NCBI RefSeq assembly: GCF_005239225.2 | Contig: NC_133297.1 | Location: 18,836,147 to 18,900,146 of the forward strand | Direction: 5' to 3' | DNA from: Populus alba | Lineage: Eukaryota; Streptophyta; Magnoliopsida; Malpighiales; Salicaceae | DNA length: 64,000 bases | Part shown: one piece after another, positions 6,720 to 34,469 of the stretch | Layout: each line of letters starts with the position of its first letter | Numbering within the stretch: position 1 is the stretch's first letter | The notes under the pieces: model-generated | What the model was told of the DNA's origin: nothing | Seen by the model: the letters and a program-made list of their open reading frames with translations, nothing else | Database searches by the model: none | Position numbers and translations under genes: made by a program

Positions 6720-7410
6720 CCTCTTAGGATGCCATTAGTCAAACCCAATCGTTTATTCATCTCATTCATCCACTTAGAATGCTTTTAGCCGAAGCTAGCC
6801 ATTTAGTCATCGTAGTCATTCACTTAGAGAGCCCTTAGCTGAAGCTAATAATTTATTTATCATGGTCATCCGCTTAGGGTGCCACTAACCGAAACTAAAC
6901 ATTTGTTCATCCCGGATGCCATTAGCCGAAGCTAATCAATCATTTTTTTTCAGTCACCCAATCGGATGCCATTAGCCGAATCTAATCAATTATTTATCCC
7001 CGTCATCCATTGGGATGCCATTAGCCAAAGCTAATCAATCATTTGTTTCGGTCATCCAATCGGATGCCATTAGTCGAAGCTAATCAATTATTTGTCTTGA
7101 TCATCCATTCGGATGCCATTAGCAGAAGCTAATCAATAATTTTTTTTCAGTCATCCAATCAGATGCTATTAGCCGAAGCTAATCAATTATTTGTCCTAGT
7201 CATCCATTTAGATGTCATTTGCCGAAGCTAATCAATAATTTTTTTCCCGGTCATCCAATTGGATGCCATTAGCCGAAGCTAATCAATCATTTTTTTCATC
7301 CCCATTAGGCTAATCATCTTTTTTTTTTCCGGTTCAGGATGCCATTAACCGCAGCTAATCAATGATTTATCCCAATCATCCATTTGGATGCCATTAGCCA
7401 AAGCTAATCA
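6720..7410. repeat. Hairpin-unit array A1, ~50-bp period
   Basis: There are about 14 tandem units of roughly 50 bp, consensus 'ggatgccattagccgaagctaatcaat' plus a variable 'catttatcccggtcatcca' part. The core ATTAGCCGAAGCTAAT is a perfect dyad: a 6-bp stem around a 4-base loop. Loops vary (CGAA, CAAA, CTGA) while the stem is mostly kept. Related arrays lie at 10530-10960 (inverted), 16505-16930 and 33990-34125. Confidence 0.85.
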
Positions 7411-7429
7411 TCAACAAATTAAACATTCC

Positions 7430-8090
7430 ATATGTGGTTTATGAATCACTATAATATGGTAATATCCTTTGAATCGCTCATTCACGCGACATAATAGCAA
7501 ACCCTTTGTGATACTTATACACGCGTTCCATAATAGTTTAACATATAATAAACACGATAATAGACCCTTTGTAATACACAAACAAAACATTCCATAATAG
7601 TTTAGCATTCATTAACAAAACAGTACACCCTTCGTATTACTCATCCAACCATTCACGACTATTAATGTTGAATACAATACAACAATAGATCCCTCATAAT
7701 AAGTATACAACCATCCGTGATAATTAACATTCAGTATAATACAATGGTAGATCTTTCGTAAAACTCATACAAGAATTCATGAAAATTTCATTCAATATAA
7801 TACATCGATAGATCTTTTGTAATACCCATACAACCATTCTTCACAATTATATTCAATAAGATACAATAGTAGATTCTTCATAATATTCATACAACCATTC
7901 GTTACAATTACATTTAATAAGACACAATAGTAGATCTTTCGTAATACTCATACAATCATTCGTCATAATTACATTCAATAAAATACAATAGTAGATCCTT
8001 CATAATACTAATACAATCAATTGTCACAATTACATTAAATAAAATACAACAATAGATCCTTTATAATACTCATACTACCATTCATTAGTA
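7430..8090. repeat. Direct tandem repeats, ~62-bp period
   Basis: About ten diverged units contain 'agatcctttcgtaatactca' and 'caaccattcgt..aattacattcaata'. They directly follow the hairpin array inside the same element. I see no dyad symmetry in these units. Confidence 0.75.
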
Positions 8091-9714
8091 GCCCAAATTC
8101 ATAATAGCCCATCAACATCTCATAGTCGGTTTAATATTCATCACATCACAATAATATATTCACCTCTAACAGGTCATTTCAGAACATTAACATTTCCTTC
8201 ATTTTTTCAACATTCAACAAGAAGCTTTTTGAAAGTGTTTGGGCCACGCTTGGTAGCTAGAGCCAACAACGTTGGGTCCCTATAAACCCCCGGTTATAAT
8301 TTTTCTAGGTATTTAAAAGATGAGAAATTTAACCAATAGTAAAATGGGTTAAATTAAATTAAAGAAACCTAAATCAAGATAAAAATAGTGAAATTAATGA
8401 AATGAAAAGTGAATATAGTACTAAATTATTGAAAAGAAAAACATTTGTGAGGACAAAATGATTACGTAAGATTAAGAGAAGTCAATATTCAAATAACAGA
8501 AGGTTGGGAGTTTATGTACAAATGATAAAAAAGGGTGGGGATAAATGTGCAATTAACAACATGTAAGAACTATAAATATCATTCTATTTTCTCTCTTGAA
8601 GGGACTGGTAAGAGTAAGAGAGAGGCTGAAGAGAAGACATATTGATGGCAGAACATCCGACAGCCTCCACCTTCCACCGTTGGATTAGAACGATATTCAG
8701 ATATGTTATTCTCATCCATGTTGTATACATTTTCACTGGAGGGATTTTCTATATCAGTCCCTGTTTGAGAGATATCAAGGGGGGAATATCTGGGAAAATA
8801 CACTTCTGGACAGTCTTCTTTGCTGTCTTTTTTCTCCTTTGGCCACCGTTGGATTAGGCTATAATTTGGATATGTTATTCTTCCTAATCCTGTCTAGATT
8901 CTGAAAGGTGGAGATTGGAAACAAACATTTGGTATAGAAGTTGTGTACCTTGCACAGTAGATCTGCAAGTTTGAGGTCAGTTCAGTTAAACCCATATTTC
9001 TGGAAATTTCACCATTTGATGAAGTTAATATTTGGATATGTTATACTCATAATAATGAATTATAATTTGACAGTATGGATTGTTTGTAATATTATTTGTT
9101 TGTTATTTATGGTTGATTGAAACTATTGTTAAGGATTGTGTTTAGAAGAATATTGTTCGGAAAGTTTGTAAAATCGATAAGAATGTTTTATTTTGACGTT
9201 AAGAGAGTAGATTGAAATAAATAAGATAAATTGGCTCTTATAAAGATATTTTTTTGACACTCTTAAACGATATGTGATATGGCCAAGGGTTGAGATAAAA
9301 GAGAAAAAGTTAAATTGTGGATGTTGTGTGTAAATAGAAAGGTTGATGAATCTAGACAAATTCGTCTCCTAACTTTTAGAGAGAATTCGAGTGGGAGGAT
9401 GAGAGAATTAGGATCAAGTTTCTTCATTGTAATTGTAGTTTTGGATGTTAGCTAACTAAGAAAAATTGGTCTTGCTCAATATGAAGCTGCAGAACCCCAG
9501 CTATGGGTCATCAACCGAGATTGGGTCCTGACAGACCCTATAGGGTAGTGTTTATTGATAAGCAATTTTGACTATCTCAGAGGCAGAACTGGGTTCTCCT
9601 TCCTTTAAAGAACTTGTAGCCTCGTGTATTAGCTTTCCAACGAGACTAATCTCGCTTGAAATAGAATTTTATAACTCTAGATATAGTTAAAAATCTGATG
9701 AGTATTTAGATACT

Positions 9715-10010
9715 AACAATTGGACAGTAACAGTTCAATGTGTAGACAGTAACAGTTCAATGTGTAGACAGTAACAATTCAAATATCTAGACAGTAACAG
9801 TTCAAAGTTAGACAGTAACAGTTGGACAGTAACAATTCAAAAGTGTAGACAGTAACAGTTTAAATATCTAGACAATAACAATTCAAAAGTTGGATAGTAA
9901 CAGTTGAATGTGTAGACAGTGACAGTTCAATATCTAGACAGTAACAGTTGGATAGTAAAAATTGAAAATTGGACAGTAACAATTCAAAGTTAAATAATAA
10001 CAGTAGACTT
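9715..10010. repeat. Short tandem repeats 'gacagtaacagttcaa'
   Basis: There are about a dozen irregular copies of a 15-26 bp unit ('agacagtaacagttcaatgtgt', 'ttggacagtaacaattcaaa'). They lie in the middle of the H solo LTR and show no dyad. Confidence 0.85.
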
Positions 10011-10529
10011 TCACGTGAATACTATATAAAAGAATTGAGTCATACGAACACTTGCACATTGAGATACTAACTCTGAAAATATACATGATATATGTATGCA
10101 TGTTATTATGAGGAAATGAACATGCATAGAAAGTAACATATGAGTAATGGATGAATATGGATTCTCTCTAATATCGGCCTGAAGGAATGATACTATAGTT
10201 GGATAAAGGATGACAACATTAATAGGTGTAATGAGAAAAACATAAGATATAAAGAAAGAAATAATTGAAAGAAAGATTTATTAGCTATTGATATAATTAT
10301 TATAAAACATATCCTTGAATGAGGAAAATTTATGAGATAAGTCTGTGACTGTAGGAAGGACCACCGATGTGGTGCAACATCAGCAACAGGGGAGCACGAG
10401 TAAAGCTTCTACTGCAGGTAGGTGACTTTCACCTTCCTTTTAAATAATGTTGAATAATGAAAATACTTTATCATGAATGTTACTGTATTGTGTTAATTCA
10501 AATACAAGACTGTCAAATGCTTAAATACA

Positions 10530-10960
10530 AACAATTGATTAACTTCGGCTAATGGCATTCGAAGGGATTACCGGGACAAACGAATGATTAGCTTTGACTA
10601 ATTGCATCTGAAGGGATGGCTGAGACAAATGAATGAGTACCTTTGGCTAATTGCATCTGAAGGGATGACTGGGACAAATAATTGATTAGCTTTGGTTAAT
10701 GGCATTCGAATAAATGACCGAGACAAATGAATGATTAGTTTTGGCTAATGGCATCCGAATGGATGACCGGGACAAATGAATGATTAACTTTGGCTAATTG
10801 CATCTGAAGGGATGACTGGGACAAATAATTGATTAGCTTTGGCTAATGGCATTCAAATGAATGACCGAGACAAATGAATGATTAGTTTTGGCTAATGGCA
10901 TCTGAATGGATGACCGGGACAAATGGTTGATTAGCTTTGGCTAATGACATTCGAAGGGGA
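10530..10960. repeat. Hairpin-unit array A2, ~50-bp period
   Basis: There are nine units of 'gattagctttggctaatggcatccgaatggatgaccgggacaaatgaat' type. This is the reverse complement of array A1, as expected because this H copy has the opposite orientation. The ATTAGCTTTGGCTAAT dyad is present in most units; some show one-sided changes (gactaattgc). Confidence 0.85.
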
Positions 10961-11627
10961 TGGCCGGAGTGAGTGAACAGTTAACCTCGACAAATGATGT
11001 CTTAAAAGAATGGTCGGATCTAAGATTATGGTTGATTGTAAGAATTGGTGCATATATATGTACTGCAAGTTGTGTATACCAAGAACATGAAGGAACTACA
11101 AATGTCACGCTTTAAACATAGATAATGTTAATGCTTCATTAAACTGCCATACCGTTTTCTTAATATTATTATTATTAAGTAATTGCATTCTTGTAAATGT
11201 TTTGTACTTCAGTAGGGACGTCATACCAATAAGGTGCCTAGAAAACCCAATACACGGGAACCTACTTTCGCAAGGAATCATGTAGTTGCATTCTAAATCA
11301 TGATGTATTTTATATGAATCAATGTACTGAATGTATAACTATTATTAGATCCTTTTACATTAAATTCGGATGACTATTTGTAGGATAGAATACAAACTCA
11401 TGTCTATGCATGTATATTTTAAATGCGAACTTCTAATCATGCAAACATAATATTATGAGTTTATGTAAGATTCACTTTTAACTGAAATGTTGATTGTTGT
11501 TGATGTATGGATTGTATATTGATGATGTGAAGGGAATATGTCCACCGATTACTGACACGATGTGTGTCAAGTACAAAAAAAAAATTGTTGTTGTTTTGGG
11601 CTTGAAAAGCCGGGTTGTTTCAGTCCC

Positions 11628-11925
11628 GCTGCCATGCCAGACCCAGAAACTTTTGACAGAGAAGACAATGCCCTCAGCCGCAATTCTTGACTAAAAACAC
11701 GGCAGAGAAATGCCTCACAGGGTGCTACAATGTTGTCCATAATGAAAATAATCTATGCCTATACTATCGTCCACAATGAAATGTGTCTGTGTCCACTCCC
11801 ACACATTTTGAAAGAGCCTATAGTAAACTCAAATAGTGCAATCCACAATGAAATCAATCACTTTCCACAATGATTCGAAATAGTGCAATCCACATGCTAA
11901 ATCAATTCTATGTTTTTTTTCATAG
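11628..11925. other. Unclassified H-flanking DNA
   Basis: No gene is seen. A phrase 'caatccacaatgaaat' recurs three to four times between 11735 and 11910. It probably belongs to the element interrupted at 8280. Confidence 0.4.
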
Positions 11926-12195
11926 TAATAAAATTTGGATTGTTTGAGCTTTCTATGATTTGTAATATTTTTTCATAAATATTTCTGTTTCTTGGTGTTT
12001 AAATTTAGCAAACAGATGGTGGACTAAGCAATAAAAGTTTTGGATTTGGTGAAGGAATTCCTTTTGTTAATGAAGACACGGTTGCTTTATGGTTTCATTT
12101 CCTTTTTTATCTTTTTATATATAGCCTTTTGTTAACAAGGCTATATATATATTATTGTTGTTTGCATTGATCAAATCACACTATCTTGTTGCTTA
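11926..12195 (+). repeat. Inverted copy of the dUTPase 3' flank
   Basis: The reverse complement of 23205-23470 is recognisable: 'gtttgagctttc', 'tttcttggtgtttaaatttagc', 'cagatggtggacta', 'aatgaagacac', 'ggtttcatttcct', 'tatagccttttgttaac'. It begins almost exactly at the dUTPase stop codon, so only the 3' untranslated and downstream part is here. It is the outer part of the left arm of a diverged inverted duplication around the GH17 gene. Confidence 0.75.
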
Positions 12196-12332
12196 ACCTC
12201 CAGCATTACTCAGTTGTAAGAAACTTTACCAACTAATTTACAAATACATGGAGGATAGGTTGTTCTAGCAAAAAATACTGTATGAACATTTCCTTGCAAG
12301 CTTACACACACACACTGAATCTCCCTAATTTA

Positions 12333-12512
12333 CTAGTAAAAAGATGATGGCTTCACCACTTTAAGTGAGAAAGAGAATGGCATAATGCATCCATCACCTC
12401 CAAAAGGCTCTGTACATGGGTCCTCACTAGGGCAAGTGCAAGCATTATAGCCCGTAGTACCGAAATAAAAGAACATTACACAGCTGTAGTTTATGCGCAA
12501 ATGCAGTAACAT
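12333..12512 (-). CDS. Small Cys-rich reading frame, doubtful
   Basis: An ATG-to-TAG frame of 59 residues has five cysteines in its middle: one at residue 11, C-x-C at 25-27, then 33 and 42, inside a Gly/Pro/Glu/Asp-rich segment. The N terminus is hydrophobic but not a clean signal peptide. I do not recognise the family. It lies in the left arm of the inverted duplication, at the place where the opposite arm carries the GH17 gene. It could be a last exon of a lost gene or chance. Confidence 0.2.
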   Translation of the reverse strand: MLLHLRINYSCVMFFYFGTTGYNACTCPSEDPCTEPFGGDGCIMPFSFSLKVVKPSSFY

Positions 12513-12559
12513 GAAGTTTGATAGAAGAGATTCTTGGCATAAGAGATGCTATTGTGTTT

Positions 12560-13320
12560 AGTTCAAAGCAAGCCCCGCCTAGTTGGATCGGATTAGCCAT
12601 GTTGCTTTGTTCGTTTGGCTATGGAGTCTTAAAGCATAATAGATCAAGTTAAAAAAGCTTTATAAACTACTGTTATGATGGAGATGAACCGAAAGAAACA
12701 TTGGCAACAGGGAAGGCATGGATAGGAACTATACAAGAAGCATCATGTAAAAATATTCTTAAAACTCGATTTAAAATTAATTGAAAAAATCTACATATTA
12801 ATAAATCAAAATGAAAAAACCAATTAGAAGATTTAAAAAATAAAAATTGGTCCTTTTGATTTTGGTTTTACATTTTAGAAACCAACAAAATTAAACCAAG
12901 AAATCAAACCACAAAAACCAAAACTATATAAAACGGAACTAAACAAATCATTTTTTATCTCAAGAAAATCAAACCCTTGATAAAAATAGTCTAAGTTTTT
13001 TTATTATTAACCTATTTAAATTTATTTGGTTTTAACATAAATAAGATTGAATAAATCAATTTTTTTATTTAATTTAATTTTAAAAAATTAAAAATTATTT
13101 TAGTTAAATTTTTTTATCCAAATCAAACTGAACCAACGCATACTACTTACCTTTTACGTTAAGATAAAAAAATGGATATTAGATATTCGCATGTGAAGAA
13201 ACTACTTAATTATATCGGTACATTAATTCAATGTAATAAAGAATAATTCTCAATTTTTTATTTTATTTTATTTATTTCGTGGAAAACATAATGTACAATG
13301 GACAATATCATTCTTCAATT
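12560..13320. other. AT-rich spacer, no gene seen
   Basis: The DNA is AT-rich with imperfect self-complementary phrases between about 12760 and 13140 ('aaaccaattagaag', 'aaattggtccttttgattttggtttt'). This suggests an old small transposon, but no ends can be defined. Confidence 0.3.
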
Positions 13321-13324
13321 TATT

Positions 13325-15895: not shown

Positions 15896-16504
15896 TTCTC
15901 TTGATTTTTTTTTTATGTTGTTTACATTACATCATATTGACATACTCATGAATTTACATTCCTGTTCTAGTCTCGTTATCAACACAAGTTTATACACGAG
16001 TGCTGAACAACAATCTTACACATATAATACCTCATTTCTTATGATCCTCATGTGATTTCTCAACACAACATCCTCATAAACAAGAATACCACATAAATAT
16101 ATTCATAACATAATATTTACATGTTTGCACATCCACATCCATGTTCCAATACAGTTTTCATGACAAGTCCTTACAAAAGTGTCGAAAGGAAAATATTCAA
16201 TATAACACTTAAGACAAACTATTACATAGCACTTTTTAAAATATGAGAACCTGTGGAACCGTTTTCCTATGTACCTTGATTGTATGATGCCCCTGTTACA
16301 AAAACAACATGAGTACAAGAACTATAAATAATCTAAACATAATACTAATAACTAGAAGGATGTTATCGTTATTTTTTGTTATCAACTAAAGGAGGGTACA
16401 TTCTTTCATTCACTTCTCAAATACACTGTGCAATGCTCATTACTTCGCTACATGTATTATCCTCATTAGTCAAAGCTAATAAAAAATCAGAACCCGGACA
16501 TTCA

Positions 16505-16930
16505 TCTAAAATGTCATTAGCTGAAGCTAATCATCAACAGAACCCGGTCATCCATCTCGGATGCCATTAGCCAAAGCTAATCATGAAACATGACCCGGTT
16601 ATCCATTCAGATGCCATTAGCCAAAGCTAATCATTTATTCATCCCGGCCATCCATCTAGGATGCCATTAGCCGAAGCTAATCAATCATTTATCCCGGTCA
16701 TCCATGCGAATGCCATTAGCCAAAGCTAATCAATCATTTATATTGATCATCCACTTAGGATGCCATTAGCCAAAGGTAATCAATCATTTGTCTCGGTCAT
16801 TCATTCAGATGCCATTAGCTGAAGCTAATCAATCATTTATCCCAGTCATCCACTTCAGATGCTATTAGTCGAAGTTAATCAATTATTTATCCCGGACAGC
16901 CATTTTGGATGTCATTAGCTGTAGCTAATC
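16505..16930. repeat. Hairpin-unit array A3, ~50-bp period
   Basis: There are nine units of the 'gatgccattagccgaagctaatcaatcatttatcccggtcatccat' type, the same family and orientation as array A1. The dyad ATTAGC-NNNN-GCTAAT is kept in most units. Confidence 0.85.
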
Positions 16931-17039
16931 ATTTTTTCATTAGCATTTACTCCTTTGACAGCTTGATGTTTGTACAAACACAATACAATTAAATTCATGA
17001 TAGAGCATTTCATATATTAACATTATGAAAAAGGAAGGT

Positions 17040-17870
17040 GAAAATCTGATTCGCTGTAGACAACACAATTTTGACAATGAACTCTAATTCACTGCAGACA
17101 ACACAATTTCGACAGTGAATACTAGTTCGCTGCAGACAACACATTTCAACAACGATCGTTGATTCGTTGCAGACAACACAATTTCAGCAGCGAACTTTGA
17201 TTCACTCCAGATAATGCAATTTCAGCAGCGAACTTTGATTCTCTACAAACAACGCAATTTCAGCAGCAAACACTGGTTCGCTGCGCACAACACAATTTTG
17301 GCAGCGAGCTTTGATTCGCTCCAGACAATGCAATTTCGGCAACGAACACTGGTTTGCTGCACACATCACAATTTCAACAACAAGCTCTAATTCACTTCAA
17401 ACAATGCAATTTTGGCAACAAACACTAGTTCGCTACAAACCACACAATTTTTCACTACAGACATCACAATTTCTACATTGAACACTGGTTCGCTGCACAT
17501 AACACAATTTGGGTAGCGAGCTCTCATTCACTATGGACAACATAATTTTGACAGGGAACTCTGATTCGCTTCAGACAACGCAATTTCAGCAACGAACTTT
17601 GATTTGTTGCACACAACACAATTTCGGCAGCAAAAACTAATTCACAACAAATACTATAAGTTCACAGCGAACACCTGATTCACTACAGACATTATAATTC
17701 AGCAATGAACACCTGATTCGCTACAAACACTATAATTCAACAGCGAACACCTGATTGGCTGCAGACAACACAATTAAGCAACGAATGCTAATTCACTACA
17801 GACAACATAATTTAGCAGTGAACACCTGATTCGTTGCAGACACTATAATTTGGTAGGAAACATCCATATG
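17040..17870. repeat. Hairpin-unit array B (GCTGC/GCAGC stems)
   Basis: There are roughly 15 units of 45-60 bp: 'gattcgctgcagacaacac' followed by 'aatttcagcagcgaacact'. The two halves are inverse: TTCGCTGC pairs with GCAGCGAA. At 17087-17094 / 17113-17120 the stem is ATTCACTG / CAGTGAAT instead, so both sides have changed together. Later units are more decayed. Confidence 0.8.
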
Positions 17871-18920
17871 CGTTTCAGTTCCAGCGCACAGTTTGCTATT
17901 AAAAATCCAACATAATCACATAATTTCAAGCATGAACAACCATATGCAATTTAGTTCCAGCATACAATATGTTTTTATCATCCAGTAAAATCACAAAATT
18001 TCAAGCCTAAACATCAACATGCATTTTGGTTCCAACATACAATTTGTTCTTAAAATCCAGCAGAGTTACAAACTTCATGCAATGCATCATTTCTTTACTC
18101 CTTTCATGTAAGTTCTTCCATCATGTATGAAAAACTAAAGCATCAATCATCCCCATGCATTCTCTTTTAGTTTGAATATGGTCTAGGAGTTCAACAATGT
18201 CATTTTCATGCATTTCATCACATATTTACATGTTGTTCAACCCTCACTATGGCCGGCTATCCCTCCAAGTTTATGCATTTAAAATTTATTTATTTATTTT
18301 GTTAAATGTTCTAGAACTAGGTTCCCCTAATCAGCCCTGTTTTTGTCCCTATTTCTAGACTAGATTTCCTTAATAGCTGGTGTAAGGATCCTAGGCCATT
18401 TTCTTAGGATTTTCTTCTTCCTTTTCAGTCCCAAAGTCACAAGAACAATGGAGAAGAGTTTTGGTTCATACCTCACGACTTTTTAACAGGTTCCAAGTGT
18501 AGTTTCAAAGGTATCTCTTTCTTTTTCTATCCAGTTTTCTCCTTTTCTTTTCTTATGCAGCTTGGCCGGCCTGCTACACTCTTTCTCCTTTTATAAATTC
18601 AGTCACTAACCTCACCCTCTAGGTTTCCTTTCACTCTTATATTTAATGGAGGGGGTATGTAGCTAGATTACGTCCGGTTTTTTTATGGAAAGGAGGCAGA
18701 GGAGCAAGAGCATGCAGCTGCTGTAGCTAGTCTTTGGGAAGAGGAAGGGTCTCCCTTTCTCTCTCCTTGTATTTATAGCCCTTATAAGCGTGCTGCAGTG
18801 TTTGGGGGTTGTTCTACCTTATCCTTGTCCTTTTTTAGGTTATCTTGAGTTGGTTTCTATTCCAATTCTCCCCTAGGATAAGGTGATCCAACACTAATTT
18901 TTTGTTGAGTTTTTAGTGTC
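17871..18920. other. Non-coding H-type DNA
   Basis: 'Agtttccagc' and 'acaatttgtt' phrases repeat three times (17870-18060). A CT-rich stretch with a minus-strand TATA-like box follows (18400-18800). No gene is seen. Confidence 0.4.
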
Positions 18921-18924
18921 AATG

Positions 18925-19095
18925 TCGATTCAGAAATCAGCAGCAAAACTATGTTGATGCCAATTCAGAAATCAACAGCAAAAAACTGTGACGCCACCGA
19001 TTCAGAAATCAGCAATGAAGAACTTTGTCGTTGTCGATTCAGAAATTGGCAGCCAAAAACTATGTTGCTGCCGATTCAGAAATCCTACATCTAAC
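18925..19095. repeat. Hairpin-unit array C (~45-bp period)
   Basis: There are about four units around 'gccgattcagaaatcggcagc'-like cores. GCYGATT and AATCRGC are inverse around a short CAGA loop. Individual units have one or two mismatches. Confidence 0.65.
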
Positions 19096-19339
19096 GAACT
19101 GCATCACCTCGCGGTGTATTTGTTTCAACAATAACCATATTATTTAATTTACTCAATATCTTAGTCATATATTAATTATTTTACTCTTAACCTTTGAAAT
19201 TTAATACTTCTAAATTCAATCAATTAATTTACATAATCTTTTCAAAACTTTAATATCCAACTAACTCATCTTGATTGCCAATAATTCTAATACTTTCATA
19301 TAATTACCCATAAATTTGGTTATTCTTCCTCTATAACTA

Positions 19340-19630
19340 ATAAATCTGGTAATTACATTAGAATTACCCATCATCCGGCTAACCTCTTTTATTAGCCAAT
19401 CAATCTGGTAATTCTATAAGAATTACCCAATATCTGTATAGAATTACCCAATATCTGGTTAACCTCTTTATTAACCAATAAACTCGGTAATTCTCTTAAT
19501 TACCCAAGAAATGCGGCTAACCCATTTTGGTTGCCAAAATCAATCCGATAATTCCATATGAATTACCCAGCATCCGACTACCCCTTTTGTTAGCCAAATA
19601 ATAATTCTGGTAATTTCACATAAATTACCA
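19340..19630. repeat. Hairpin-unit array D (two alternating stems)
   Basis: Two kinds of dyad alternate. Type 1: GGTAATTC-5-GAATTACC (19407-19427) and GGTAATTT-5-AAATTACC (19609-19629). Type 2: GGCTAA (19377-19382) / TTAGCC (19392-19397) and TGGTTAA (19456-19462) / TTAACCA (19471-19477). In both types the two sides of the stem differ between units in a matching way. Confidence 0.85.
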
Positions 19631-20269
19631 ATAATTCTCATTTGTAATAATCACTAAATTTACTCATTTGCTTCATTCTTTTAACATCAATTAAATAAAC
19701 AACATAGATATTTAAGGAAAACTAATAATTACAAAATAAGATGACGAATCACCTACCTTCTGTTCGTGATGACCCAACTCCTCCCGTATGATAACCAACT
19801 TCTTCTGTCTGATAACCAGCTCCAGACATCACTTCTGAATCAATCAAATGTCATTATATCATTAGTCCATCAATATTTTTCTTACGTGCTGAAATGCAAA
19901 GCATATATATTTTTTTTATTTGTTTTGATAAAAATTCATTCGCAAACATAACATCATCATTTCACATACAACCACGTAATTAATTCAAGTTACTTCTTTT
20001 CTTGATTTATGTTCATAATTCCTCCATCAAATAATCCTTTTATTCTTTATGCCTTCACATCATATTATTTATTTTATCTAAACATATGTAAGAACTATAT
20101 TCAAACACAATTTAAACATCTTGTCTTCATGCTTTCTTTTTAATTTAAATAAACCCAACAATAATTTAGTCTTTTATAAAAACTGAACTGATTAATTATT
20201 ATGTTCATTAATTTTTTTTTATTGCCTTGGTTAATCTTATATATTCGAATCTAATAGATAAGTACGTTT

Positions 20270-20600: not shown

Positions 20601-20656
20601 TTAATTCACCACCCGAAGTCATCTTTACGCTTCTGTCCTCGACTTATAGCATATTC

Positions 20657-20666: not shown

Positions 20667-20718
20667 ACCCACTCCAGTTTAAAAAAAAAAACAGAACAGA
20701 AACCGCTCCTCCTAAGCC

Positions 20719-23630: not shown

Positions 23631-24848
23631 TAATGGGTCTGGAAAGACATGTCAGACCCAAGTTGCTTAGGAGTGGCATGGGGCAGACCCAAATCCTTTG
23701 GGTCTTACAGGTCTACCTGACCAAAGACAATTGATTCAGGAGTCAGACCCTAGGCTTATGGGTTCGCGTTAGGATCCAATGCTATTGGATCTTGCATGCT
23801 CACCCAACTCTAATGGGTTTAGATTGTAGCCAAACCCAAGGCTTTTGGATTCGGCATTTAACAGGGGCCCAAAACTCTTGAATTTGGTGTTGCAGCTGGA
23901 TCCACTTAAACTTGAGTAAGTTTATTGTTATTATTAATATTAAAAATATTATTATTTGTATTAGAAATAATTTTATTTTTATGATGAATTAATTTTATTT
24001 GTATTATAAATATTTTTATTTTTATTATAATTAATATTATCAATATCATAATTAAGAAATTTTAAAAATATATCATTAATTTTGAACAACAACCATAGAT
24101 TTGATTTGAAGGGTAAAATTATTATTATTATTATTATCATTAATAATTTGAAGAAAAATATTACTAATATTGAAGAAAAACAATAAGTTTTATTTGAAAG
24201 GATTAAAAACTATAAAAACTTAGTTCGGATAAGTTTAATATTATTATTAATATCATCAATATTATTAAATTCATTCATATTATTAAATTTGAAATAAATT
24301 TTATTACTAATAAAAAAAACATAGATGTGATTTCAAGGGTAAAATCAATTATTTTTATTAATATTAACTTGGATTTGGAAGGTCATGCTAGACCAAGTTG
24401 TTTGGGGGTGGCAAGGGGCAGACTGAAGTCCCTTGGGTCTTATAACCATCCTTGGCACATGACAATTAGGTCAATAGTCAGACCTTAGGTTAATGGGTCC
24501 GTGTCAGGACCTAATTCTCTTAGATCTTGCGTCTTCACCTAACTCTAATGGGTTCGGAATGCAACCAGACCCAAGGCTTTTAGGTTTGCCATTTAAGGGG
24601 GCCCAAGCTCTTGGGCTTGGTGTTGTAGCCAGACCCGCTTAAACTTGAGTAAGTTTATTGTTATTATTAATATTCAAAATATTATTATTTGTATTATAAT
24701 TAATATTGCTAATATTAAAAATAATATTATTTGTATTACAAATTTTATGGTTTTTATTATAATTAATATTATTAATATCATAATTAACAAATTTTAAAAA
24801 TATATCATTAATTTTAAAAAACACTATAGATTTGATTTGAAGGGTAAA

Positions 24849-24894
<46 letters not shown>

Positions 24895-26055
24895 TAATAA
24901 TTTTGAAGAAAAATATAATTATTATCAAAGAAAAACGATAAGTTTTATTTGAGGGGATTAAAAACTATAAAAACTTAGATCAGATAAGTTTAATATTATT
25001 ATTAATATCATACATATTATTAAATTTGAAAAAAAAATATATTACTATAGAAAAAAACATATATATGATTTGAAGGGTAAAATCAATTATTTTTATTATT
25101 TTAAACTTGGATGTGGAAGGACATGTTAGACTCAAATTGCTTGCAAGTGGAAGGGCAAAGATTCATGTCCCTTGGATCTTGCAGCCTTACCTAGCCCAAG
25201 ACAATTAGGTAAAGATTGAGACCCTAGACTAATGGTTCTGCGTTAGAACCCAGCTCTTAGGTCTTGCGTCGTTACCTAACTCTAATGGGTTCGAATTGTA
25301 GCTAGACCTAACGCTTTTGGTTCTCTCATTTTAGAGGGGTCCAAAGCTCTTGAGTTGGTGTTGTAGCCAGACCTACTTAAACTTGGATAAGTTTATTGTT
25401 ATTATTAATATTAAAAATAATATTATTTTTATTATAATTAATATTGTTAATATTAAAAATATTATTATTTGTATTATAAATTTAAATATTGTAAAATTTG
25501 AAATAAATTTTATTACTATCGAAAAATATAGATGTGATTTGAAGGATAAAATCAATTATTTTTATTATCATTAACTTGGGTCTGGAAGGGCATGTCAGAC
25601 CCAAGTTACTTGCGAGTGGCAGGGGGCAGATCCATGTCCCTTGGATCTTGCAGCCTTACCTTGCCCAAGACAATTGGGTAAAGCGTCAGACCCTAGGCTA
25701 ATGGTTCCACATCAGGACCCAACGCTCTTGGGTCTTGCATCCTCATCCAGCTCTAATGGGTTCAGATTGTAGCCAGACCTAATGATTTTGGTTTCCTTAT
25801 TTTAGAGGGGCCCAAAGCTCTTAAGTTGGTGTTGCAGCCAGACCTACTTAAACTTGGGTAAGTTTATTGTTATTATTAATATTAAAAATATTATTATTTG
25901 TATTATAATTAATATTGTTAATATTAAAAATATTATTTTTTTTATTATAAATTTTATTGTTTTCATTATAATTAATATTACTAATATCATAATTAAATAT
26001 TTTAAAAATATATCATCAATTTTGAAAAACACAATAGATTTGATTTGAAAGGTAA

Positions 26056-26103
<48 letters not shown>

Positions 26104-26870
26104 GAAATTAATAAATTTATTATAGAAGAAAAACAATAAGTTCTATTTGAGGAGATTAAAAACTATAAAAACTTAGGTCAGATAAGTTTAATATTATTAT
26201 TAATATCATAAATATTATTAAATTTGAAATAAATTTATTACTATTGCAAAAAACATAGATGTAATTTGAAGGGTAAATCAATTACTTTTATTATTATTAA
26301 CTTGGGTTTGAAAGGGCATGCTAGACCCAAGTTTCTTGGGAGAGGCATGGGAAAGACCCAAGTCCCTTGGGTATTGCAATCTTACCTGACCTAAGACAAT
26401 TGGGTCAAAAGTCAAACCCTAGGCTAATGGGTTCACATTAGGATCCAATACTCTTGGGTCTTGCATCCTCACTAAAATGTAATGGGTTCGAATTGTAGTC
26501 AGATCCAAGGCTTTTGGGTCACTCATTTAAGAGGGATCGAAAGCTCTTGAGCCTGGTGTTGTAGTCAGACCCCTTTAAACTTGGGTAAGTTTATTGTCAT
26601 TATTATTATTAAAAATATTATTCTTTGTATTATAATTAATATTAAAAATATTATTATGTGTTATAATTTTTATTTTTTTATGATAATTAATATTATTAAT
26701 ATCATAATTAATAAATTTTAAAAATATATCATTAATTTTGAAAAACAAACATAGATTTGATTTCAAGGGTAAAATTATTATTGTTGTTGTTGTTGTTAAA
26801 TTATTAAATTTGAAGAAAAATATTATTATTATTATCAAAGAAAAAACAATAAGTTTTATTTGAGTGTATT
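23631..26870. repeat. Satellite array, ~730-bp units (five)
   Basis: Units start near 23631, 24366, 25102, 25570 and 26296 at the phrase 'ttgggtctggaagggcatg'. Spacings are about 735, 736, 468 and 726 bp; the third is internally shortened. Each unit has a 300-bp part rich in 'cagaccc', 'ttgggtc' and 'cccaag' phrases, then an AT-rich part with ATT runs. Pure (ATT)n runs lie near 24847-24892 and 26058-26103. Single diverged units also lie at 302-954 and 3297-3397. No coding function is seen. Confidence 0.85.
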
Positions 26871-28196
26871 GAAGAACTTATGATTTCCTTGTTTAATTAG
26901 TTGAGATGTGTTGTTACAATGTGATTGATAACTAGGAAAAAATTGCATCACCTACAAGAAGGAGGAGCCCTTAGTTCCTTTGGGTAGGTTCGGCCGAAGT
27001 AAAAATAAATTAATTAAATTAGTGCAAATAACCTTGGGAGATCATAATTACATGGGTTGCCATGTATATGGTGATGACATAGTTGTACTGGAGGAGGAAG
27101 AAGGGATTGGAGATAAAATTGAAGATACTTTGTCTATTGACGAAACAAAGCAATTTTTTTGCCCTAATTCTTGTGGGAATTCAAACGTGAAGATGATAGA
27201 ATCCAGGGAGGGCCCATAGAAGTTGTAGCCCGGAGTGTTAGCTTTCCAATGAATCTCACCCCGCCTAATTTGGATTCCTATAACTCTTCATGAAGTGTCA
27301 CCCCTGCTAGCAGATTTAGACAAGTCGACAAAATGGTGAAATTTAGCAATATTAAGGGTGGAATTCATTTTCTCACCCTTCATGAAGTGTGTAACGTCGT
27401 GCCTTGATCTTCAGAAAGGAATAAATTGTGATTGAAATTGAATTCATGATGTCCAATTAGAACTACTAATTTTAGCCTCCCTAACAAATAATCATAGCTC
27501 TGCCTCGACCTATAATTACTATTGTGTACTGTCGCATACATATAAATAAATAAAATTGACTAAAAATAACTTAAATCATTGTATTATTCTCAACTATTAC
27601 ACTATTATTCTCAACTGTTACACTATTTTGAATATAACGACTATAAATTTAGTGCCAACTTTTTTTTAGGCGTATGCTCCCGACAAATTTCAGATGGCTT
27701 TGTAGACTTTAATTTTCGAAACCCAACCATGGAAGGACTTGAAGGTAAAATGCTTATTACTTTCTGTATGATAGAAAACCTACTTATAAAGGCATTATTA
27801 ATAAATCGGGCTTCTTTTTTTTTTTGGCAGTATCATATTGAGGGCATTTTTTTACGCGGGTTGCTAAGTGACATTGACCGATGCAAGTCAATTATAGTGT
27901 GAGTTTGTTTGATGTTTTTTCTATTTCAATTTTTTTTTATCTTACTGTATTGTTGTGAATTGGGTTTGTACTGTGTGTGCGTGCGCGCGCATTTTCTATA
28001 GTGATTTTGATGGAATAACGCTTGACTGAAAAGTTCTAGTTGCCTAGTGAAGAATTGGCGGCGGTTGAACAAATTGAAGAATTGTTATGATTTATATGAA
28101 CAATATTGTTTTAGAAAAAGATTGTAGTGCATTATGCTTTTAAAGTTGATAATAAAGTAATTTTGTGATTTTATTATATATATTCTGGTTGTGCTA
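26871..28196 (+). mobile_element. Family H-like element, left part
   Basis: The stretch 26955-27470 matches 28830-29400 inside the next H solo LTR ('agaatccagggagggtccc', 'agaagttgtagcc', 'gtgttagctttccaa', 'aaggatagaattcattttc'). It is interrupted at 28196 by that solo LTR and continues at 30995. A short region with intron-like borders (27669-27745 and after 27830) gives no recognisable protein. No gene is called. Confidence 0.45.
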
Positions 28197-30994
28197 TGTG
28201 AAGCCCGAGAATAAAGTATACAAAAAGGGGGAGGTTATAATAATTCAAAATTTTGTTATAACACAAAATAATGCAAAAACAAAAGGGGGGCTAAAATAAG
28301 AAAAAGGGAGAAAGATGGGGCCAAAATGGAATTAAGAAGAAATGGGACTATAAATACCCATTTCTTTTATCATGGCCGACTGATAACAAGAAGAAGATGG
28401 GGAGAATTTCAAATTTTTCCTTCATCAAATCTAGGAGTAAACACCTAAAATTACTATACCCACATAAGCCTCAGAATTATTAAGTGGAGGAACACAATTA
28501 GGTGGAGAATTAACAAGAAGAAAAGTGAAGAATTGGTGAAGAAAAGAGGGGGAAGAGTGGCCGGTGATATGCAAGGAGAAGAAGGCTAAGATTCTTCTAA
28601 AATTTTTGAAGTAAAGTTTAGATTCCATCCAAGTAAGGAGTTCTAATTCCAATTTCTATGAAATTAACTTCAATTTGATTAGAAGTTTGTGATTTTCTTG
28701 AATTGGAAATTAGGGTTCTTTAACATAAAATGTTTGGAAAAGGTAGAAATGAGTGAGATTAAATGGACTAGAATAATCTAAGTGCCTTAAAGAAGAAGAA
28801 GAAATGAGTGAAAAAAAGAGAGCAAGGGAACTCTTGGTTCCTTTGGGCATGTTGTCGGTGAAGAGATACTGAGGATAGGGAATGAGAACTTATGATTTGC
28901 TTAATTAATTAACTTGATACAAATGACCTTAAGAGGAAATAAATGAGACGGTTGCCATGAATAAAGGGAAGGCATGGTTATGACTGATGAGGAAGCAAGG
29001 ATTGAAGATGAATTGGAGATACTTTCTCTATTAGCAAAATAGGGCAGGTTCGTTTCCCTGGTTCCTGAGGGAATTTGGACCTGAAAACTACAGAATCCAG
29101 GGAGGGTCCCTCATAGAAGTTGTAGCCTAGAGTGTTAGCTTTCCAACGAGTATGACCCCGCCTAATTTAGTGTCCTGAAACTCTAAATATGAATAAAAAT
29201 ATGAGAAGAGCGTCAGCTGTTGCCACTACTAGTAGTTTCGGCCAAGTCGACAAAATGGCGAGTTTTAGTCGTATTAAGGATAGAATTCATTTTCTTTCCC
29301 TTTGTTAAATGTGTAACGTTGTGTTGTGATCTTCATAAAAGAATAAAATGTGATTAAAATTAAGGTCATGATGTTCATTAGGATTACTAAAAAGCTGAAA
29401 TTTTAAAGGATTATAATAGGGGATTTAGGTAAGAAAGAATAATGATAAAGAGAAATGAATATTATTGCCATTTTTTCTGTTGTGTTGTGATATGTGGACT
29501 AATACGGAATAATGATGGGTTTTTGTGGTTTCAGGAGAAACTGCGGAAGGAATACAGCAACAACAAGGGAACACAAGTCGAGCATCTACAACAAGTAGGT
29601 ACTCGGTACCTATATCTCCTCTAGTTAATAATTATTTTAACTAACTATTGAACTGTAAAAATTTGGTGCTTATTGAAGAGGAAAAGAAAGGGGGAAAGGA
29701 AAGGTTAAATGACAGGAAAATAGAAACGGGGGACTAGAGTTAATTTATGGGTTCTTTTGGAGGAAATGAACAGTAACAATGAATTTGGGGAATGATTGTT
29801 TCTCAAATTTGATTAGCATGTCCCTAATATGGGAGGCAAATGATGTTAGCCAAGTTGATTAACTATTCGAGTTCAAAATAGTTAATGATATTGGTGGGTG
29901 ATGTCGATATCGGCAAAATTTATAAACTTGATTAACTATTTAGGTTCAAAATAGTTAATGATATCGGTGGGTGACGTCGATATCAGCAAAATTTATAAAC
30001 TTAATTAACTATTTGGGCTCATAATAGTTAATGATATCGGCGGGTGACATCTATATCAACAAAATTTATAGACTTGATTAGCTTTTCGCGGTGAAAGCTA
30101 ATGATGTCAAGAATCCTTGATAATGGCATACCCGAGGATCTCCCTAGGTAACATAGAACATTGATTAACTATTTAGGTCCAAAAAATAGTTAATGACATC
30201 AACGATCGTGTTAAAGGAAATGATTAGTTGACCCCGGGATGGGCAACTAAAGACACTAATGGAGGTCATTAGTGTCGTCAGTAGTCTTCCTAATGTGGGG
30301 AAAAGTAGTTAAAGAAAATAAATTGGATAATCCTTAAAAGGGGTTGGTGGTGGTGTATTGAATTGCATATGGCTTAAGTAGGTAGATGCGTTGTATAAAA
30401 TTTCTTCCATGAATTGTTTGTATTTTAGTTATTTTTTAATTATATGGAAAATTTATATTTTGCACGTCTCTCCCATTCATGTTAAGAGTATAATTTAGGT
30501 TCCTTATCCCTTTTTGTATAAGTTAGGAACTTAGGGATTTGTGGTGTAATTTTGTCATGCAGTAAACATGTAACCTGTAAAGAATATTATATTTGTAATA
30601 TTTGTTTCTGGAATATTAAATGTATCAACCTATGCTTGGGATATTAGAATGTACTAGATTATGTTAGAATATTTAATTGTGTTGTGTTATATATATATAT
30701 ATATGAAATCTTTGTGCTCGAATTGGCTCTTTTAAATTATTAACTTATATATGTGATGTAAAATGGAGCTGGGGAATGAATATGGTCCTGAGCATAATTT
30801 TGAATGAATTATGCAGTTGATTGTACTAAGCATGGAAGTGATTGTGGATGAGATGTGATTCCAAATGTGTGCAGGGTACATTGTCAATAACTTGGGACCT
30901 CCCCAGTATAGGGAAGATTCTAAATTATGCTCCATCTACCCTTTATAGGGGGAAGATTAATGGATAAATTAATACTAAAATTGAGGTTGTTACA
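28197..30994 (+). mobile_element. Family H solo LTR, perfect TGCTA duplication
   Basis: It starts TGTGAAGCCCGAG and ends GAGGTTGTTACA, flanked by identical 5-bp repeats TGCTA (28192-28196 and 30995-30999). It is 2798 bp and non-coding. A TATA-like box (ctataaatac, about 28348) lies near the left end. The shared 'gttgtagcc...gttagctttccaacgag' block is at 29120-29155, an AAGTAGGTACT stretch at about 29591, and hairpin array E at 29858-30276. With the GTCCC-flanked copy it defines family H as an LTR family. Confidence 0.8.
29858..30276. repeat. Hairpin array E (several different stems)
   Basis: There are at least six dyads in 420 bp. ATTAACTATT (29858-29867) pairs with AATAGTTAAT (29877-29886) and recurs twice more. 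ATTAGCTTT (30077-30085) pairs with AAAGCTAAT (30094-30102). ATTAACTATT recurs at about 30164. TTAGTTG...CAACTAA is at 30224-30250. GACACTAATG (30252-30261) pairs with CATTAGTGTC (30267-30276). All listed stems are perfect, and neighbouring units use different sequences. Confidence 0.85.
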
Positions 30995-32295
30995 TGCTAA
31001 GTGTGGACAAATTTATACATTGAATCAGTGTCCGAGAAATTGGAGGGATGAATTAATGACCTAGTAAAAGGGTCAATAATCGGGAAAATGGATGGATGAA
31101 TTAGTGACCCGGTAAAGAGGCCAGTGCCCAGGAAATTAGGCAGATGAATTAGTGACCCGGTAAAGGGGGTCGGTGCCCAGTAAATTGGGCAAATGAATTA
31201 GTGGCCTAGTAAAGGGTCGATGCCCAAGAATTGGGCGGATAAATAAGAGATTTGGTGATGAGGTTGGTGCCCGATAATGGGGCAAATGGATTAATGACCC
31301 AGTAATGAGGTTAATGTCAAATATTGGATGGTTGGATTTTTAGATAGTCAAAAGTAATGGACTGGACCTGAGGGCAGTGCTGAGTTTGGGTAAATGTGAT
31401 GGATGCATGGTAAATGAGCATAATGGGAGGAATTAGATTTCCGGATGTTTGGGACTAGAGTCCTAGTTAAAGGGTTACTAATAGAAGCAATTATTGAGTG
31501 GATAATTGGTATACATGGTATAATGTTAACATGAAATCTTAAAAAAAAATTGAAAACATTTTATCAAAAAAAGAAAATGTGTATTGTGATTGAATGTGTG
31601 AAAATGTGTATTGTGATTGAATATGTGAAAATGATTGGGATATCATAATAATTCTTATTTTAGACTATTATAGCATTATACCCTATTCTGGGCAATGAGC
31701 ATTTATTACTAGTGAGGGCGAATGCCTTAGCGAGGAGGAATGAGAGTGGTTGTGTGATTAAGAAATTATTGTCGGACTTTGATTAAAGAAAAAAAAACAA
31801 CATGTTACTAAACAGTTGGGGCAAGCCAAGCAAAAATTGTTATGGTGATCCTGGATGAGGAGTTATTACTTGGTATTAATCAGTTAGTGCTAGTACACTA
31901 TTTACTGGGAGTGATATTGTTGATTAGTGTCCAGGAATTACTAAAGATGTCAATGGAAAGGCACTAGGGATTGAGGCTTTTAAACACAAATTTTAAATTG
32001 AGTGTTTTAGATTGAAGGGTTGGTGCCTTAGTCTATAAAGTTGTTGTAAGGCATTAGTGACTCGAACAGGGAGAAAGGAACCCTAATTGATGGAACCGAA
32101 GGGAAACCTAGTTCCTTTTATATGAACTAGTTTTTATTCAAAATAAAATTGTTAGAATGGAAGATATGATGTGATAGTATGGCAAAAAATACATCCTTTT
32201 TAGTTGTTGGCTATCAGTGAACACAGAGTTGTTGTGCAAGGCTTTATAATGGGACAATCAATTCTTTTTGACCAGTGGGAGATGAGTTAAGAAAG
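30995..32295 (+). mobile_element. Family H-like element, right part
   Basis: It is the continuation of 26871-28196 after the solo LTR. It carries hairpin array F (31030-31320). The rest (31320-32295) is non-coding with short 'aatgtgtattgtgattg' direct repeats near 31575-31630. The right terminus is not resolved; the next LTR begins near 32297. Confidence 0.4.
31030..31320. repeat. Hairpin array F (GACCC/GGGTC and GCCCA/TGGGC)
   Basis: There are five units of about 56 bp: 'gaattagtgacccggtaaag' then 'ggtcggtgcccagtaaattgggcaaat'. Two short dyads alternate. GACCC (31154-31158) pairs with GGGTC (31167-31171), and GCCCA (31175-31179) pairs with TGGGC (31186-31190). Other units keep the pattern with small changes. 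Confidence 0.75.
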
Positions 32296-32296
32296 G

Positions 32297-33201
32297 TATC
32301 GCACATCTCCACGCGGTGTCGCGACAAATATTCTTATATGTATATAATGGCATATGCAGGGAGACCAAAAAATTCTTGTCTCATATCAGTGGAACATTGG
32401 AATGAGAGTCACCATCTAGTATTTTGGTCACTAGGAACCCTAACTGGTCTCAGAGAGATCGGGCACGGAGACTGGTTACGTAAAGGGAAGGTATTAGCAC
32501 TCAACTACGCCCTACCTAAGGTAAGCTGCATTGTTTTGTTGTCTGATAAAATCTAATTTCTTGTTGTGGTTTTCTAATTGTTGATCTTGTCGGTCTAAGA
32601 TTCAAGACAAGCCTTTCCTCAATAAGGAGGTTTTTATCTTAATGAGGTAAAACCTAATTGTTACAGCGCGTTAAAAAAAAACAAAATTTAAAATCCAGAA
32701 TACGTATTATGTGTAATGTTGTACCTTGGATACTAAAAGACAAAAGAAAATAAAAATTTGTTGTTTTTCAAAATTTTTAGCCAATGTTCTCTTAACTTTA
32801 ATAAACTAGTTATTAAAGTCAAAATGCATGCTAAAACATTTTTTTTTGGTGTATGAAAAACACAATATAATTTTTTTAACTTTGAGACACTTGGCCTTAT
32901 GCACAAAAACATTTTTTTTTTCAATTTTTTTTAAGTTGATGAAAATTGGGTATTTTTAATATCGAATTTTGTATTTTTACGACATAAAATACAAACCAAT
33001 ATTAAACAAAATAGCGTAAAACAAAATGCAGGGACATCACAAAATTTTAAAAATTTTTTTTTTTGTTAGGTTAGACCCGGCCCACCATTGTTGAGCTAGA
33101 CTGGACTGAACCCAAGATCCATGGGCTGGGCTCAAAATATTCAGCCGGGCCAGAATTGGCCCAGCCATGAACAATGCTCTCCACTGTTCACAGACTACTT
33201 G
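32297..33201 (-). mobile_element. Family M LTR fragment (minus)
   Basis: It contains the M conserved block (about 32405-32535: 'agtcaccatctagtattttg', 'gtaaagggaaggtattagcac', 'cctacctaaggtaag') in the same orientation as the copies at 955 and 3990. A 'gggctgggctcaaaa' part (33120) also occurs in the copy at 36960. It is cut at 33201 where an H element starts. Confidence 0.55.
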
Positions 33202-34469
33202 TGTAACAGTCCGACAATACGACTCGATCAATGTTAAAAAAAAATTCCAACATATCCTTTTATTTGAGGGTAAATTTTTTTTTTTCTTCAAAAATTCAGC
33301 AAAGTTTCGTTTGCATTTAGAACATCCCAAGTTATCGACTACTATCAGTTTACTCAATCAACCCACCATCACAAGGTCCTATAATTCCGAACCTTATATC
33401 AAACCTCATAATTCCACAACATATATATATATCTTACGAGTAAGATCAATATGAACATAGTCCAAACATTATATAATAAAATTTAAAAGAAAAGGAATAC
33501 TAACATGCAAAGAAAGTATTTACAACATAATAAGTGTCCCTAAATGTTTCAAAAGGGTTAATTACAAGATAACTAAAATACTAAATGCTAAGTTGAACTT
33601 TTATAAATACATCAAGGTTTACACAAAAGTATACTACATAACACGTTATTTCCCTTTTGTTTAAGTTAAATATTTACATAAGCTTCATAAAGTAGAGTCC
33701 TAAACTAATGATCTTCCTGGATGTTTGATGGACCTGTTACATAAATAAACATACCATTATGTTGATAAAGAATATATGTATGCTCATGTAATGAATATGA
33801 ATGAAGTATTAACATTCTACCGAATCCATGAGAACTCTAACAAAGAACTTATATTTTGCTTGTAAATCTTTTAAACCCAATTAACACTCATTTGTAATAT
33901 TCTTAGTTGAATAATCTTATTTACTTGCATACACTAGGTGACCTTTGCAAAGTCAAATCTTGTAATTCGTTTTCCCAGCAATCCTATCACGGATGCCATT
34001 AGCCAAAGCTAATCTTGTAAAACATCTCCCGGCAATCTTATCACGGATGCTATTAGCCAAAGCTAATCTTATAATTCACATCTCGACAATCCTATTACGG
34101 ATGCCATTAGCCGAAGCTAATCTTGTATTTACGCTAGATTTTACTTACATTGAACACTACATTTACTGTAATTGCATACACCAGACAAATTTTAAATTAT
34201 ATAAGTGCAAATAGGAGGAAAATCACGCACCTGCTTCGCCTGTCTCGCAACCTCGCCCTAACAGAAGATCCAATCCTGGTTGCTCTCCTGAATCACAAGG
34301 AAGTTTTTTTGGTTATGATTCCTTCAAGCCAATATTATAGAGAATTCATATTCATCCATTACTCATATGTTAGTTTCTATGCATGTTCATTTCCTCATAA
34401 TAACATACATACATATCTCATGTATATTTTCAGAGTTAGTATCTCAATGTGTAAGCATTCGTATGATTT
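33202..34469 (-). mobile_element. Family H element (minus), runs into the gap
   Basis: It starts TGTAACAGTCCGACAATACG. Its part 34330-34469 is the reverse complement of about 10031-10170 in the H solo LTR ('gcatgttcatttcctcataa', 'cagagttagtatctcaatgt'). It has three hairpin units of type A (33990-34125). The other end is lost in the N gap. Confidence 0.6.
33990..34125. repeat. Hairpin units A4 (three copies)
   Basis: There are three units about 53 bp apart with 'cggatgccattagccaaagctaatcttgta'. The same ATTAGC-NNNN-GCTAAT dyad is present. Confidence 0.8.

Follow-up and report, generated by a model that had tools for sequence, protein, structure and literature searches.

In this work we analysed a 64-kb stretch of the Populus alba genome (G000:C14:18836147-18900146, hereafter the window), which contains several long terminal repeats (LTRs) and LTR-like sequences with tandem arrays, together with genome copies from the 416-Mb assembly of 96 contigs. 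Many of the repeated units form hairpins. Hairpin chains with different arms usually follow a shared 5′-splice-site-like sequence, GTAGGT[GA], and this position is the new element. The initial annotation had reported tandem arrays at 6720-34125, and these arrays exist; its description of LTR-like elements carrying hairpin repeats with differing stems was borne out as well, several kinds exceeding chance.

Hairpin arrays in long LTRs

The features of the window are as follows (TSD, target site duplication).

6369..8275, minus: LTR-like A (ends not found), with a 49-bp array at ~6720-7410 and a 61-bp array without hairpins at 7622-8083
8281..11622, plus: LTR B, a solo LTR with TSD GTCCC at 8276-8280 and 11623-11627 (ends and TSD read directly)
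8571..8578, plus: TATA box TATAAATA of B, 290 nt from the LTR start
9718..9988, plus: 22/23-bp array of B, hairpin-poor
10414..10426, plus: 5′-splice-site-like GCAG followed by GTAGGTGAC of B, 118 nt upstream of the first 49-bp unit
10536..10967, plus: 49-bp array of B, two hairpins per unit (ATTAGC-TTYG-GCTAAT and CATCC-GAAK-GGATG)
15900..19100, minus: LTR-like C (ends not fixed), with TATAAATA at 18770-18777
18926-19084, 17858-18062, 17045-17850 and 16464-16931, minus: arrays of C with 36/37-bp, 75-bp, 38-bp and 49-bp units, respectively
19220..19740, minus: hairpin chain G, GGTAATTC/GAATTACC alternating with GGCTAAC/GTTAGCC or GGTTAAC/GTTAACC, spacing ~29 bp
19747..19760, minus: 5′-splice-site-like GAAG followed by GTAGGTGATT, before chain G
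28197..30994, plus: LTR D, a solo LTR with TSD TGCTA at 28192-28196 and 30995-30999
28349..28356, plus: TATA box of D, in the loop of a perfect 10-bp inverted repeat (28337-28366)
29592..29604, plus: 5′-splice-site-like CAA followed by GTAGGTACTC of D; an exon-like block starts at 29535
29809..30290, plus: hairpin chain D, 73-bp units with ATTAACTATT/AATAGTTAAT and GATATCG/CGATATC
within 29809..30290, plus: later part of chain D, with ATTAGCTTT/AAAGCTAAT, TTAGTTG/CAACTAA and GACACTAATG/CATTAGTGTC
31036..31320, plus: hairpin chain F, units GACCC..GGGTC and TGCCCA..TGGGCA
33973..34127, minus: 54-bp array (ATTAGC/GCTAAT type) of LTR-like E, which is interrupted by an N gap at 34470-34969
34222..34234, minus: 5′-splice-site-like GCAG followed by GTGCGTGAT, before the E array (one copy seen)

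The stretch 27008-27469 matches D at 28903-29390 with 72% identity, and D was apparently inserted within the older LTR-like sequence F. A self-comparison of the window gave no match of at least 90 bases shared by B and D. Both LTRs contain TTAGCTTTCCAACGAG (9629-9644 in B, 29135-29150 in D).

LTR B was aligned with 20 loci of 9.9 kb each, centred on 49-bp arrays. The LTRs measure 3.3-4.4 kb in 15 loci, and 3.3 kb (B) and 2.8 kb (D) in the window. Alignment to B located the start line in 12 genome loci: it reads exactly TGTAAACCCCCGG in seven (L011, L013, L014, L015, L017, L022 and L028), is a near variant in four (L018, L019, L025 and L026) and is broken in L020. The end line was found in 19 loci, as GGGTTGTTACA in 18 and as a variant in L017; among the 20 aligned loci, L009 had none. 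The C-type LTR of L010 starts with TGTAAACACCC. TG..CA ends combined with an exact 5-bp TSD were observed in L010, L013, L017, L018, L022, L025 and L028 and in B and D of the window. The TSD of L011 agrees at four of five positions, and the remaining loci are nested, paired or without resolved ends.

Directly after the LTR lies TTGGTATCAGAGC in L014 and L019, or its variant TTGGTAGCAGAGC in L012 and L027, which we take to be primer binding sites of the tRNA-Met type. Ahead of the LTR, the end of pol is accompanied by AAGGAGGGAAGAATG (L014, L015) or AAGGAGGGAAAAATG (L019), presumably polypurine tracts. The internal parts of L014, L015 and L019 are stop-ridden pol remnants ending NFEDEIL; no long gag or pol open reading frame (ORF) was seen in these three loci, the ORFs of L015 being on the opposite strand. 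The fetched copies contained no intact RT, RH or INT domain, and the 25-aa integrase-like piece of L014 had no Pfam match. By reading of the sequence, LTR ends and pol remnant look like Ty3/gypsy. The arrays thus very probably belong to the long LTRs of a related set of Ty3/gypsy elements, either defective or non-autonomous, which we take to be Tekay/Del-like from their end features. Most copies are dead, and their changes are neutral.

The idea that the LTR contains a conserved gene found no support: ATG ORFs of at least 70 aa occurred in only two of 15 LTRs (two each in L012 and L016), with none in the other 13, and one of the two ORFs in each of L012 and L016 is taken to fall inside the 38-bp array. 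For L012, L016 and L027, approximate LTR starts were used in the ORF, TATA box and stem-count analyses. Two loci show further rearrangements. At L019 (sense 1466-5869) a single LTR has internal sequence on both flanks, as in tandem retroelements that share an LTR. At L010 (sense 2415-5734) a C-type solo LTR with TSD CCAAA breaks a stretch that resembles, by reading, the LOG-like ORF of the window (42310-42630).

Hairpin excess and the position of the chains

To quantify the hairpins, stems were counted and compared with shuffled sequences. Chain D contains 4-14 perfect stems of at least 7 bp per copy in 40 copies, against shuffle means of 0.34-1.00 and a maximum of four stems in any of 50 shuffles per copy. 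We also counted stems of at least 6 bp with loops of 3-9 by LTR region, using 11 of the 20 loci. The 49-bp arrays hold 105 stems with 17.5 expected (11 LTRs), the 38-bp arrays 49 with 7.7 expected (5 loci) and the 22-bp arrays 43 with 22.4 expected (6 loci); the remainder of the 11 LTRs has 86 with 61.7 expected. The counts within arrays are not independent, because one hairpin recurs many times per array. Across the whole window, 174 local inverted repeats were found versus 89 expected (126 tiles), about a twofold excess.

RNA folding against shuffles gave z-scores of -4.2 for the 73-bp unit of D, -5.3 for the GGTAATTC stretch and -4.2 for the F stretch 31095-31240, with -1.9 for E. The 49-bp units of L010 and window C reached -2.0, and 49-bp stretches of B and A -4.0 and -1.7. 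A 38-bp pair of L010 scored -5.0 and the 38-bp stretch of the window -2.4; the 36-bp type of L010 scored -3.6 and the 37-bp stretch 18926-19075 scored -4.1. No fold excess was detected in the 61-bp (-0.5), 22-bp (-0.2) and 75-bp (-0.5) arrays. The z-score alone is not specific, since of two control stretches in another LTR (-0.6 and -3.2) one reached -3.2. With DNA parameters, six LTR stretches gave -3.1 to -6.1, the satellite described below -3.9 and the 61-bp array -0.7. When single units of the window arrays were shuffled, which is a weak test, those of decayed arrays were mostly no better than shuffles, and only the 73-bp array (median p 0.00) and an outside control at 51739-51851 (0.03) stood out.

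The view of the initial annotation that array units share inverted repeats therefore stands for several kinds, which go beyond shuffles; it falls for the 61- and 75-bp units, which have none, and largely for the 22-bp units, which have few. The proposed GGTAATTC/GAATTACC array does consist of hairpins, in the form of a chain of alternating hairpins about 29 bp apart and not of a simple array. Tandem growth alone gives no hairpins, because the 61- and 75-bp arrays of the same LTRs are free of them.

Separately, a 735-bp tandem unit occupies 23634-26878, with a long AT-rich part and a richer part that has its own GGGTCT..AGACCC-like hairpins. This satellite forms a second hairpin chain that looks unrelated to those of the LTRs. 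Rfam at gathering thresholds recognised no known RNA family in the arrays, and a viral contig scan with the unit pattern gave no match. Elsewhere in the window, Rfam reported two MIR2912 matches, at 40665-40822 and 50392-50550. They sit inside two 1.9-kb repeats (39269-41145 and 48977-50871) that are 93% identical and look like LTRs of another gypsy element. Since both matches lie in LTR-like repeats, the MIR2912 family may be LTR-derived.

Next, the position of the chains was analysed. LTR sequences carry four kinds of hairpin chain with differing arms, namely the 49/54-bp kind (B, C and E), D, G and F, and a GTAGGT[GA]-like site precedes three of the four. The first 49-bp unit has GTAGGTGA 117-382 nt ahead of it in 19 of 23 loci. 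For D and G, upstream pieces were taken from 20 of the 39 copies each. GTAGGT[GA] was present in 19 pieces of D and 17 of G, where shuffles predicted 0.98 and 0.76, respectively.

The same site coincides with a border between sequence modules. Similarity between C-type LTRs and B begins at B position 2129-2131, that is, at GCAG followed by GTAGGTG, in six of six C-type loci. The G copies (L128-L146, L068 and L076) fall into two groups with unlike sequence up to GTAGGTGATT and shared sequence after it, a sharp module border. One possible source of the GTAGGTG border is a template switch between RNAs packaged together, and the site might then mark the R region. Ahead of the site, a pattern with at most 11 substitutions located an exon-like block, acceptor-like at its start, in 13 loci and in window B and D. 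The block also occurs, by reading, in five of the six C-type loci, and further in most D pieces; its junction is altered in L024 and L025. At the other end, TATAAATA lies 278-288 nt from the LTR start in 10 of 11 B-type LTRs, the offset of L016 being rough because its LTR start is approximate, and is also present in two of four C-type LTRs. If this TATA box is in use, the chains are part of the leader RNA.

Pairing within arrays and between hairpin types

The initial annotation had held that both sides of a stem change together inside arrays, and had called for a covariation test. We ran such a test on the 49-bp (268 units, 224 distinct) and 38-bp units (209 units, 193 distinct), using our own R-scape-like, phylogeny-aware script with a substitution-placing null, and not R-scape itself. 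No stem covariation was detected in either set, paired changes being no more frequent than the unit phylogeny predicts. On the tree of the 49-bp units 503 changes were placed, 246 of them G>A or C>T. Every stem pair of these units had an expectation value (E) of at least 83, and the best E of any pair was 7.2, so none was significant (40 simulations). Stem pairs of the 38-bp units ranged from 29.5 to 404.5 with 1-37 changes per stem column; the best pair overall (E 0.20) sits in the loop. Watson-Crick counts in the 38-bp units stayed within 14 of the independence expectation, with the largest excess (92 vs 78.2) at the innermost pair.

Among arm combinations present in at least three loci (9 of 85 for 49-bp units, 4 of 159 for 38-bp units), there were no compensatory doubles. 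One-sided arm changes amounted to 10 wobbles and 6 mismatches in the 49-bp units and 2 mismatches in the 38-bp units, plus one unpaired double. The number of units passing the filter ranged from 8 to 22 per locus (23 loci). The units of both homogeneous arrays thus drift without compensation, about half of the changes being G>A or C>T. Because stem covariation is missing, arm-by-arm rewriting or compensation inside these two arrays is unsupported. Since these are mostly dead copies with neutral changes, the missing covariation alone is no argument against a function in the active lineage.

Between the hairpin types of the mixed chains D and G, paired differences do exist. Hairpins of chain D anchored by GATTA..TAA show eight inner-arm pairs seen at least three times. 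Four of them pair at 4/4 positions (ACTA/TAGT, GCTT/AAGC, GTTG/CAAC and GCCT/AGGC), two at three and two at one; in the last two the anchors cut across a hairpin. Across 41 combinations, own arms of chain D scored 2.17 versus 1.59 for swapped arms, with the lowest p that the test can give (0.0002). The same test failed on the 49-bp units (p 0.32).

In chain G, the pattern GG.TAA..TTA.CC had 135 matches in 40 copies including the window, with C-G in 74, T-A in 51, G-C in 5, C.A in 3 and T.G in 2. A looser pattern (204 matches) gave 107 C-G, 73 T-A and 24 others. Own versus swapped arms scored 2.67 and 2.10 (p 0.0002, 54 combinations), and the P type alone gave p 0.007 (19 combinations). At the sixth position of the P type, 71 of 95 were C-G, 6 T-A and 18 unpaired or wobble. 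The C-G/T-A contrast may represent one ancient event, since it lies mainly between two hairpin positions of the chain. The earlier suggestion that kept pairing means either a maintained fold or the rewriting of one arm from the other thus survives in part: rewriting inside the 49- and 38-bp arrays drops out, and maintained or re-created dyad structure is a fair reading, because arms of D and G differ yet pair, at the same kind of place.

Possible roles and origins of the chains

We propose that the arrays of these Tekay/Del-like LTRs turn over by whole units and contain a structured cassette kept in the active lineage, an overall explanation to which we give even chances. Whole-unit turnover itself is probable. 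Hairpin units would be duplicated, exchanged and replaced whole; both arms would then come and go together, which would leave paired differences between hairpin types. Some need for dyads would be maintained in the active lineage. The chain may form a structured cassette just 3′ of a splice donor, in a leader RNA whose transcription would be driven by the TATA box close to the start of the LTR; the cassette would act on unspliced RNA in packaging, dimerisation or splicing control. This RNA cis-role is less certain than the turnover, and we put it forward tentatively. An RNA cis-element on the unspliced leader is nevertheless the role we favour, with DNA palindromes and a neutral origin as close rivals. 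Its most specific version appears rather improbable: in Tekay/Del-like LTRs, a position-fixed, sequence-free hairpin cassette just 3′ of a conserved donor would be confined to unspliced RNA and signal its packaging or dimerisation. The arms of this cassette would be replaced hairpin by hairpin between subfamilies, and the donor would also be the border at which subfamilies exchange LTR halves.

Several observations weigh against a selected RNA cassette at this position. The site GTAGGTGA is missing in L009, L024, window A and window C. As copies of each kind are relatives, the positional association represents three or four independent cases and not 55. Transcription start, splicing and poly(A) site are putative. 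In L010, dyads of the 36-bp type stand ~100 nt ahead of the TATA box instead of behind it. In the aligned D region, where variation in unit number makes the alignment poor, 10 of 59 pairs reached p<0.05, but none was significant once all 59 were taken into account, the best expectation being 0.49. Changes in stem columns were almost as common as in unpaired ones (1.31 vs 1.46). When all X hairpins with two inner bases were pooled, the anchor test returned p 0.14. Relative to 24 shuffles, the antisense RNA of most chains equals or surpasses the sense RNA in folding, with sense/antisense z-scores of -4.7/-9.5 for D, -6.2/-6.9 for G, -7.7/-7.7 for the 49-bp and -10.8/-12.4 for the 38-bp kind, and sense RNA is therefore not singled out.

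Under a neutral origin, hairpins without function would arise and multiply where the LTR tolerates them, through slippage and fold-back template switching while it is reverse-transcribed or replicated. We see this as possible but not likely. It would suit the uncompensated drift of the 49- and 38-bp units, the spread of 8-22 units per locus, the window-wide excess of inverted repeats (174 vs 89) and the hairpin chain of the 735-bp satellite, but 61- and 75-bp arrays without hairpins and 22-bp arrays with few sit in the same LTRs, and the same position with different arms requires a hot spot or selection. Dyads may bind dimeric factors as cis-regulatory palindromes, arrayed as in other retrotransposon promoters; such a DNA-level role is the next best form of the cassette idea, though on the unlikely side. 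TGACGTC occurs in D units (29855-30080), and CACGTG and GCACGTGACGTC in several genome copies, all of which we take to resemble bZIP sites. DNA folds are as good as RNA folds, and the 36-bp dyads of L010 stand ahead of TATAAATA. However, the chain starts far behind the TATA box, at a distance of ~1.5 kb in D, 2.0 kb in B and 1.7 kb in L010, and one fixed factor fits poorly because arms differ between chain kinds at the same position. PMC10760457 describes Sirevirus palindromes as defining the cis-region of the LTR, and cis-regions of transposable elements as often being repeat arrays, sometimes palindromic. It also reports a small RNA excess over Sirevirus palindrome clusters and a 2.9-fold density in LP-hairpins of LTR elements. 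By analogy with the proposal for Sirevirus LTR palindromes, the hairpins might trigger small RNAs and silencing; this seems very unlikely here, stems of 6-11 bp being short for dicing singly.

Tat/Ogre/Retand elements have tandem repeats in the interval from pol to the 3′ LTR, as Macas reportedly described in 2009. PMC11963269 and PMC7004042 place the arrays of these elements likewise. They resemble ours as element-specific tandem arrays of variable length and sequence in LTR retrotransposons; ours, in contrast, lie inside the LTR and many of their units are hairpins, a word absent from the main text of both articles. Hairpin clusters in plant LTRs are not new as such, because palindrome clusters of maize Sirevirus LTRs are known (Bousios et al. 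2016, as given in PMC10760457). The likeness lies in hairpin-forming palindrome clusters inside the LTR of a plant retrotransposon. Sireviruses, however, belong to what appears to be another superfamily (Ty1/copia), and in our LTRs the TATA box comes before the chains, whose arms vary from kind to kind; PMC10760457 describes maize Ty3/RLG elements as generally without an obvious peak of such structures. The Sirevirus motif CACCGGACNNNGTCCGGTG had no match in the window at up to three mismatches.

For Del elements, PMC4029996 gives LTR lengths of 1143-4831 bp, with Populus trichocarpa among ten genomes. Our LTRs share this length range, TG..CA ends and variability (PMC4029996 and PMC6317226) and differ in that the copies have no long ORFs. 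A word search of the main text of PMC4029996 found none of "tandem", "hairpin", "palindrom" and "splic". No hairpin chain in chromovirus LTRs was recognised among the literature matches listed, judged by titles and abstract starts, which is no proof of absence.

In retroviruses, the packaging signal follows the splice donor on its 3′ side. Stem-loops occur where the R region of a retroviral LTR is long (PMC3601003), and our chains are similar in that hairpins would occupy the transcribed LTR part or leader, here just 3′ of a donor-like site. They differ in being tandem, highly variable in unit number and inside the LTR of a plant element. Separate spliced and packaged RNA pools of barley BARE (PMC3735527) make a packaging-type signal plausible, without direct support. 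Should selection act on where the chains lie, these LTRs would illustrate how the sequence of a retrotransposon can be replaced while a structure in its RNA or DNA is preserved, and they would open a way into leader function and packaging of plant Ty3/gypsy elements. In the neutral case, too, hairpin and hairpin-free arrays in one LTR provide a clean system for the origin of tandem dyads.

Near the end of the window, 60549-61875 and 62650-63995 form a large inverted repeat of ~90% identity, with 81-82-bp tandem units between and within its arms.

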